44,772 bases of DNA. Source: Burkholderiales bacterium. Lineage in GTDB: Bacteria > Pseudomonadota > Gammaproteobacteria > Burkholderiales > Casimicrobiaceae. Numbering within the stretch: the stretch's first letter is position 1; each line of letters opens with the position of its first letter. A program made the position numbers and the translations under genes. Location: contig JAISYH010000047.1 in NCBI GenBank assembly GCA_031270015.1, forward strand, positions 1 through 44,772. The letters are read 5' to 3'. A model generated the notes under the pieces. It saw nothing but the letters and a program-made list of their open reading frames with translations, did no database searches and was not told the DNA's origin. Shown here piece after piece: positions 7,131-23,196 of this stretch.

Positions 7131-7215
7131 GGGTCAAATGCGAGCGCCGTTGGAAAAGACCCGAGCCTGGCTTGATCGGCGATAACGCCCAAAAGTCGCA
7201 ACGCTCCTCGGAACG
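7131..7215 (-). promoter_or_regulatory. S-adenosylhomocysteine (SAH) riboswitch
   Basis: Read on the minus strand, this leader contains CCGAGGAGCGTTGCGAC (7210-7194), CCAGGCTCGGG (7170-7160) and AACGGCGCTCGC (7150-7139), in the order of the SAH riboswitch. CCGAG pairs with CTCGG and GAGCG pairs with CGCTC, the latter giving the long-range pseudoknot-like helix of the family. It lies between a TATAAT box and ahcY, the usual position in proteobacteria, where SAH binding turns on the SAH-clearing enzyme. Metabolite specificity is inferred from the family. Confidence 0.9.
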
Positions 7216-20739: not shown

Positions 20740-21909
20740 ATGAATGATTTTCTGTTTACTTCGGAATCGGTTTCCGAAGGGCATCCCGACAAAATTGCCG
20801 ACCAAATCTCCGATGCGGTGCTGGATGCGATTTTGACCGAAGACCCAATGGGGCGTGTGGCGGCGGAAACGATGGTGGCTACCGGTCTTGTCGTCATGAC
20901 CGGCGAAATCACGACGCACGCGCATCCCGATTACGCCAATATCGCGCGCTCGACGATACGTCGCATCGGTTATAACGATCCGGCGCTATGCTTCGACGCC
21001 GACAGTTGCGCCGTGATGGTCTGTTATGGCAGACAGTCGCCAGACATCGCACAGGGCGTCGATCACGCGTCCGACGAAGCGCTCGATCAAGGCGCTGGCG
21101 ATCAAGGTTTGATGTTCGGTTATGCCTGCGACGAGACGCCGACGCTGATGCCCTTTCCCATTTATTATGCGCATCGGCTGGTGCAGCGGCAAGCTGAAAT
21201 TCGCCGCGACGGACGGCTTCCTTGGCTGAGACCGGACGCGAAAGCGCAAATGACTGTTCGCTATCAAGATGGAAAACCGGCATCGATCGATACGGTGGTA
21301 CTTTCGACGCAGCATCATCCCGAAATGAATGATAAGCAAAAAGAATTGATGGAAGCGGTCGTCGAAAAAATTATTTTGCCGGTATTGCCTAAAAGTATGG
21401 TTAAAAATACGCGCTTTTTGGTCAATCCGACCGGGCGATTTGAAATCGGCGGACCGCATGGCGACGCCGGATTGACCGGACGGAAAATCATTGTCGATAC
21501 CTACGGGGGCGCGGCGCCGCACGGTGGCGGCGCGTTCTCTGGCAAGGACCCGTCGAAAGTCGATCGTTCGGCGGCTTATGCGGCGCGTTACGTCGCCAAA
21601 AACATCGTCGCGGCAGGCTTGGCGCGGCAATGTCAAGTGCAACTATCGTACGCGATAGGCGTTGCTCACCCGATCAATGTGACCGTTTACACAGAAGGAA
21701 CGGGCGTTATCGACGACGCCAAAATCGCGGAGTTGGTGACCACTCACTTTGATTTGCGTCCGAAAGGAATCATCAAAATGCTCGATCTACTGCGACCGAT
21801 TTATGGGAAAACGGCGGCTTACGGACATTTTGGGCGAGATGAACCTGAATTTACTTGGGAAGCGACCGATAAAACCACGTTGCTGCGCGATGCGGCGGGA
21901 TTGAAGTAA
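20740..21909 (+). CDS. metK: S-adenosylmethionine synthetase
   Basis: MetK makes S-adenosylmethionine from methionine and ATP. The 389-residue protein has the canonical motifs [20 protein letters not shown] at the N-terminus, [12 protein letters not shown], the P-loop-like [19 protein letters not shown] and C-terminal [14 protein letters not shown]. Its product is the methyl donor whose by-product is cleared by the ahcY operon in this window. I saw no SAM riboswitch in the short upstream region. Confidence 0.97.
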
Positions 21910-22028
21910 ACGGCAATCATCGCTGGAAAGTGACGGGGGCATGGTTGAGATTTTGTCATAATGCGACGAATCAGCGGAACATGCCAGCAAAACATGCTTC
22001 AAATATCATCGCATCAAGCGTGAAAATT

Positions 22029-22056
22029 TTGAATCATGGGGAAAACGCACTATAAT
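22029..22056 (+). promoter_or_regulatory. Sigma-70 promoter of the 48-residue protein
   Basis: TTGAAT (22029-22034) and a perfect TATAAT (22051-22056) are spaced by 16 bases. Transcription would start near 22063 and leave a leader of ~140 bases. Confidence 0.65.
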
Positions 22057-22070
22057 GCCAACCCTTGGTA

Positions 22071-22163
22071 GCGTTTCCACAATGACGGTTGCGCGCGTAT
22101 GGGACGACGATGTTTTTGTCGTGCTTTTGTTGCGCGGATTCAGCGATACACTTGCGGAAACGC
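22071..22163 (+). other. Folded leader RNA, unidentified
   Basis: GCGTTTCC near 22071 and GGAAACGC near 22156 are perfect complements that would close a domain of ~90 bases. Inside it ACGAC/GTCGT form a hairpin around GATGTTTTT, and GTTGCGCG occurs twice. It lies between a strong promoter and a small gene with a good ribosome-binding site. I do not recognise it as a known riboswitch. Confidence 0.4.
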
Positions 22164-22205
22164 ATCGGTTTACAAGATTAACTTATTGATTAAAAAGGAA
22201 AGATT

Positions 22206-22352
22206 ATGGCGGAGCGGACACGGGTTCGTCGAAACACCATCGAGCGTCGTTGCCTTGGCAAAACGTTCAAACGCATGTTTGTCGGCGCGCCGAAAGGCGT
22301 TTTCAAGATGCTGGAAAAAATAAAAATGCAGGATAAAGCCAAGAAAAATTAA
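22206..22352 (+). CDS. Small basic protein of unknown function
   Basis: This 48-residue reading frame starts with ATG ten bases after an AAGGAAAG site and ends in TAA. The protein (MAERTRVRRNT at the start, MQDKAKKN at the end) has about 16 Arg/Lys residues and few acidic ones, no membrane span and no signal peptide, so it may bind nucleic acid or ribosomes. Support comes from the promoter, the ribosome-binding site and codon use like its neighbours. I do not recognise a family. Confidence 0.5.
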   Translation: MAERTRVRRNTIERRCLGKTFKRMFVGAPKGVFKMLEKIKMQDKAKKN

Positions 22353-22684
22353 TGACGTATCGGCGTTCGAATAACATAAGCATAACAGCCGCATAACATT
22401 TTCATGCGTGATGTTTTATTGAGGATATATCGCGGTCAGGCGGGTTATTGATATAACATTTCCGGCGCGTCTCAAAGGTAAGAGATATTTCATAATAAAA
22501 ACCTTGATAAGACCTTTTTATTGCGTGATACTGACAAAAAAGAGCTTTCCATATTGAATATCGCGCAAAAATAAAAAATTTACAAAGCATTTTTTATTGA
22601 AAAATCATGAAGCGCGCCGCAAAAAAGAAATAAAAAACGTTAAAAAACAAATAGATAAAATTATGCCGCTCATTTTTTGGCAAG
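22353..22684. other. AT-rich non-coding region upstream of pilA
   Basis: No convincing gene is seen. The region is strongly AT-rich with several A-tracts near 22560-22665, as expected for bent DNA and activator (PilR) binding upstream of a sigma-54 promoter. No specific site was identified. Confidence 0.5.
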
Positions 22685-22701: not shown

Positions 22702-22773
22702 TAATAAAGATCAAGCCCTTGTTGAAGAGGCAGGGGTTCTTAAGAGTTTTTTATTACATTGAAAGGAAATATC

Positions 22774-23196
22774 ATGAAATCAGTACAAAAAGGTTTTACA
22801 TTGATCGAGCTGATGATCGTTGTCGCGATTGTGGGTATTCTGGCGGCGATTGCGATTCCTGCGTATCAGGATTTTACGGTGCGCAGTAAATTGAGCGAAG
22901 TGTCTGCGGCATTGGGCGCTTGCAAAACATCGGTCGCTGAATATTTTGGGGATCGCGCTGCTTTCCCGTCTGATGAAGACGAGGCGGGTTGTACGAGCAA
23001 TACTACTCGTTATTTGTCGAGTTTAACCGTTAGTGGTACTCCGTCAGCAATTTCGGGAACAACGACATCTGCAGCTGGCGCCAATGGTTGTACCTTAACG
23101 CTGACGGCTGTAACGAGCGGAACGCCTCCGGCGATCACTTCGTGGGATGGTGGTAGCGATTGCAAGCCTTCGCACGTTCCGGCAACATTCCGCTAA
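22774..23196 (+). CDS. pilA: Type IV major pilin PilA
   Basis: This is the main subunit of type IV pili used for twitching, attachment or DNA uptake. The 140-residue prepilin has a short leader MKSVQKG, cleaved by PilD before the N-methylated Phe, then the conserved hydrophobic helix [20 protein letters not shown] with Glu5. Four cysteines follow in the globular part; the last (SDCKPS) is near the C-terminus and probably forms the D-region disulfide loop. ATG 22774 has AAAGGA just upstream, so an in-frame TTG at 22759 is rejected. A sigma-54 promoter and a strong terminator frame it. Confidence 0.95.

Follow-up and report, generated by a model that had tools for sequence, protein, structure and literature searches.

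To judge from sequence, the short open reading frame that follows metK in the 44,772-nucleotide stretch of DNA analysed here (the window) is a real protein-coding gene; its product belongs to a family that has no name in any curated collection searched and that appears confined to the Burkholderiales (GTDB). The family is best read as an uncharacterised one with a constitutive housekeeping role, most likely the binding of structured RNA or of the ribosome, a reading given a probability of roughly 0.4. The leader RNA in front of the gene is regarded as a local, incidental feature, and the evidence does not support reading it as a riboswitch or attenuator.

Organization of the small gene

The upstream neighbour, metK, occupies positions 20740–21909 of the forward strand, on which all the elements of the small gene also lie. 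A sigma-70-type promoter-like site, TTGAAT-16-TATAAT, is located at 22029–22056; it matches the consensus at 10 of 12 positions and is the best of six sites found in 1 kb, where shuffled sequences lead one to expect 2.3. It is followed by a 5′ leader of about 143 nt (22063–22205), which can form a long imperfect hairpin, and by the Shine-Dalgarno-like sequence AAAGGA (22194–22199). The open reading frame (22206–22352) encodes a protein of 48 residues, MAERTRVRRNTIERRCLGKTFKRMFVGAPKGVFKMLEKIKMQDKAKKN, with 16 lysines and arginines against four acidic residues and a pI of 11.4; the majority of the family have 42 residues. The first-pass annotation had described a near-consensus promoter and a short, highly basic protein with a good ribosome-binding site, placed after metK, and all these elements are borne out.

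The same layout recurs among the relatives. A −10-like box is present upstream in 81 of the 90 distinct loci, a count that is somewhat circular because at each locus the sequence before the start that came closest to TATAAT was taken as the box. One of the motifs AGGA, GGAG, GAGG or AAGG lies within 20 nt of the start in 93% of relatives. An intrinsic terminator occurs within 100 nt of the stop codon in 37 of 90 loci and in none of the shuffled sequences; the same scan found no terminator for the window's own copy. Usually the gene forms a single-gene unit.

A conserved protein family

The proteins are 40–56 residues long and share the core RxxRRNTLERRCLxKxFKRLF...FKMLEKIK, in which R6, R8, R9, E13, R14, R15, C16, K19, K22 and R23 are invariant among 27 diverse members. 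Between the window and its congeners, pS is 0.57–0.68 while pN is 0.04–0.07, and over 86 sequences of the gene the variability at the three codon positions is 0.10, 0.06 and 0.24. The frame is kept and synonymous changes are in large excess, as in a coding gene under selection and far beyond what chance would give. The conservation of the frame, on which the first-pass annotation had staked its proposal of an undescribed gene for a basic protein, is therefore strong, and the curated families searched give no match.

The pattern of substitution also bears on the possibility that the transcript acts mainly as a small RNA, the reading frame being incidental as in S17 of Bordetella pertussis. The short, apparently monocistronic transcript, with a terminator in many species, would suit such a function, but it is the third codon positions that vary and the amino acids that are fixed, which makes this explanation very improbable. 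S17 is flanked by BP3151 and coq7 and carries an open reading frame of 32 residues (PMC11722255); identity with it was rejected on both the size of the frame and the locus.

Searches with the protein gave no match in Pfam, NCBIfam or PHROGs, and in Pfam no family, DUF1127 included, appeared up to an E-value of 10. A PDB sequence search returned no meaningful match. Comparison with known ribosomal proteins and the chains of solved structures likewise gave no sequence match, although the solved ribosomes may not include a species that carries the gene. In the literature, neither the motif nor a matching small protein was found described. An AlphaFold2 model built from 27 sequences predicts helices at residues 12–15, 19–24 and 31–47 with modest confidence (mean pLDDT 72, pTM 0.39), and a Foldseek search with this model found no matching fold in the PDB.

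The leader RNA

The leader contains the perfect 8-nt complements GCGTTTCC (22071–22078) and GGAAACGC (22156–22163), separated by 77 nt. The domain of about 90 bases closed by perfect complements, as described in the first-pass annotation, thus exists, but its strength is ordinary: 3% of shuffles contain an 8-bp pair spaced in this way, as do 22 of 313 tiles of the window (7%), and 105 of these 313 tiles equal or exceed the leader in fold stability. As folded, the 146-nt leader has a z-score of −2.15; the hairpin alone reaches −3.6, a value for a segment that was cut out only after the fold had been seen. Over 75 leaders of the family the mean z-score is −1.1.

It had been suggested that the layout is that of a riboswitch or attenuator, and an RNA thermometer controlling the small gene belongs to the same class of explanation. 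Besides the long hairpin with its perfect 8-bp closing helix, folding of the leader by itself pairs CCUU (22063–22066) with the AAGG (22195–22198) of the Shine-Dalgarno sequence, and the SAH riboswitch elsewhere in the window indicates that the lineage uses such devices. This 4-bp pairing is lost, however, once the coding region is included in the fold. The leaders of congeners cannot be aligned with one another, the apparent leader lengths in the family range from 13 to about 145 nt and are often far shorter than that of the window, and no consensus fold emerges from 42 Alcaligenaceae leaders. Since the leaders within the genus are unalignable and unequal in length, no compensatory changes can be demonstrated. 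Rfam gives nothing at the gathering score over 21900–22500, the best matches below threshold having E-values of 1.9 and 6.7; the earlier statement that the RNA fits no known family holds, for no meaningful match appears even at E≤10. Control by the leader is largely refuted by the absent conservation and is hardly to be expected. The hairpin is better viewed as a lineage-specific feature of the 5′ UTR, at most an mRNA-stability element.

Three further observations concern RNA elements. No second copy of the leader was found in the genome, and the idea of a repeated element was rejected on this ground. The leaders of Achromobacter (L064–L097) contain a well-conserved block, CCGCCAGCCC...CCGGTTGTGCGG, which may fold into a short hairpin; this hairpin did not emerge as a consensus when the aligned leaders were folded. 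The SAH riboswitch (RF01057) is located at 7135–7215 on the reverse strand, in the same window as metK, and scores 53.2 bits, above the gathering score.

Distribution

In a search of 100 related genomes, 46 had a match with an E-value of 1 or less, strong in about 30 cases; the strong homologues (62–90% identity, E-values down to 7e-22) come from the genus and family of the window and from two other families. A wide scan of 84,980 genomes, one per species, yielded 91 confirmed loci, the best 80 of which belong to Bordetella, Achromobacter, Pigmentiphaga, Pusillimonas, Verticiella, related genera and Burkholderiales MAGs, those of Casimicrobiaceae type among them. By profile search, 55 of 399 Burkholderiales genomes carry the gene, a few with weak matches. 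Across the phylum 8 of 397 genomes match, strongly only the window and one genome of the same order (G111), and in the class 2 of 323, one being the window and the other a weak, partial match. Beyond the Burkholderiales the profile met nothing but weak matches over part of its length. Weak matches in families f42, f18 and f20 and in genome G062 were rejected as likely chance frames. Many families of the Burkholderiales and other sampled Pseudomonadota do not have the gene.

Within one Alcaligenaceae-type family (f4) the gene is nearly universal: 113 of 121 genomes carry it, once each, and 41 of 43 genera are represented. This family is taken as the Alcaligenaceae because two of its genomes, G187 and G348, have exactly the same leaders as Achromobacter sp. 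Root83 and Bordetella sp. 02P26C-1. Its carriers include four genomes of 0.8 Mb (genus g150) and one of 0.9 Mb, which fit Kinetoplastibacterium as a candidate identity, from size and family only. Candidatus Kinetoplastibacterium, a member of the Alcaligenaceae that lives as an endosymbiont in trypanosomatids, has a genome of about 0.8 Mb with 690–732 protein-coding genes (PMC5632650). Elsewhere, the gene is carried in family f23 by 25 of 28 genomes, and a diverged form (MAINRNRRSSLERRCVSK...) is found in 11 of 81 genomes of family f21. The gene is absent from plasmid and phage records; a toxin or anti-defence protein borne by phages or plasmids was rejected on this absence and on the near-universal single copy in f4. 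The family is apparently inherited vertically.

Gene neighbourhood

The neighbours vary by family. Among relatives from the Casimicrobiaceae metK is retained as the upstream neighbour, as it is in one other family (f43). In most Alcaligenaceae loci a divergent uvrA adjoins the gene or lies within 3 kb, and in some, including those of the 0.8 Mb genomes and Pusillimonas, ettA is found downstream. A YbiT-like ABC-F gene adjoins the small gene in some f21 loci. An operon partner common to all families was sought and none was found, so that a conserved partner was rejected. The loci at which the gene stands beside genes for ABC-F ATPases include L153, L169 and L170 (YbiT-like in f21, ettA in the 0.8 Mb genomes). 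In the window, a type IV pilin-like gene (22759–23196) lies downstream; it is kept in several congeners at 41–68% identity, often in its N-terminal part alone.

The proximity of uvrA, together with the strong positive charge, would suit a DNA-binding protein, either nucleoid-associated or an accessory factor, perhaps acting with UvrA. Against this, metK and not uvrA is the neighbour in the Casimicrobiaceae and f43, the UvrA-like match in the Casimicrobiaceae, where present, lies on the opposite side at a distance of more than 3 kb, and no known fold was found. This explanation seems improbable.

Proposed role of the protein

Retention in reduced genomes favours a housekeeping function. The near-universal single copy in the Alcaligenaceae, the retention at 0.8 Mb, the strong purifying selection and the absence from plasmids and phages all point to a housekeeping role of a constitutive kind. 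The gene would be read as a single unit from a vegetative promoter of its own and translated from a good ribosome-binding site into a protein of 42–48 residues with a pI of about 11. An arginine-rich N-terminal segment precedes the amphipathic helices, and the protein most likely binds structured RNA through a face rich in arginine and lysine, the target probably being the ribosome or an RNA–protein complex in translation. Expression, binding to RNA or the ribosome and importance for growth are all inferred.

The ABC-F neighbours, EttA and YbiT-like proteins, offer a weak hint of a link with translation and are restricted to few lineages. The absence from many Burkholderiales families and from other sampled Pseudomonadota would be unusual for a core translation factor, and a protein that is basic and amphipathic might just as well bind DNA, acidic membranes or a protein partner. 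In particular, the protein may be a regulator that works through protein–protein contact, on a sensor kinase in the manner of DUF1127 proteins, or one that uses its basic amphipathic helices to act at the membrane. Its small size, the helices, the invariant cysteine and the stand-alone gene are consistent with this, and DUF1127 proteins of fewer than 50 residues are described in PMC12501420 as acting on a sensor kinase. No DUF1127 or other Pfam or NCBIfam model matches, however, and presence in 0.8 Mb genomes speaks for housekeeping; regulation is considered possible but doubtful.

For the preferred housekeeping role, a more specific and tentative proposal, itself rather unlikely, is that the Alcaligenaceae and their relatives have here an unrecognised, lineage-specific protein that is part of the ribosome or bound to it, and that it matters enough to be retained in endosymbiont-type genomes of 0.8 Mb. 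Its small size would then explain why the protein-family collections have overlooked it. Bound to the ribosome or to RNA, the protein would be a lineage-specific translation factor. The distribution indicates an unstudied conserved component of the cell, a 42-residue protein in nearly all sampled Alcaligenaceae, Bordetella and Achromobacter among them, and in endosymbiont-type genomes, and whatever its role it is a clean, testable target.

Comparison with known systems

SAM and SAH riboswitches are leader RNAs found, like the small-gene leader, near a gene of the methionine cycle, here metK; the leader described here differs in that it is placed after metK, has no Rfam match and is unconserved. 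SRA/bS22, RMF and bTHX are ribosome-associated proteins of fewer than 60 residues, highly basic and encoded by stand-alone genes. The small protein shares their size, basicity and gene arrangement, although no sequence relation is seen and Pfam, NCBIfam and PDB give no match. The arginine-rich DUF1127 proteins are similar in being shorter than 50 residues, basic and encoded alone, but they have a different conserved core, and the DUF1127 model of Pfam does not match. S17, a betaproteobacterial toxic small RNA, is likewise a short conserved betaproteobacterial transcript with a small open reading frame; it lies beside coq7 and is conserved as RNA (PMC11722255), whereas the small gene has other neighbours and is conserved as protein.
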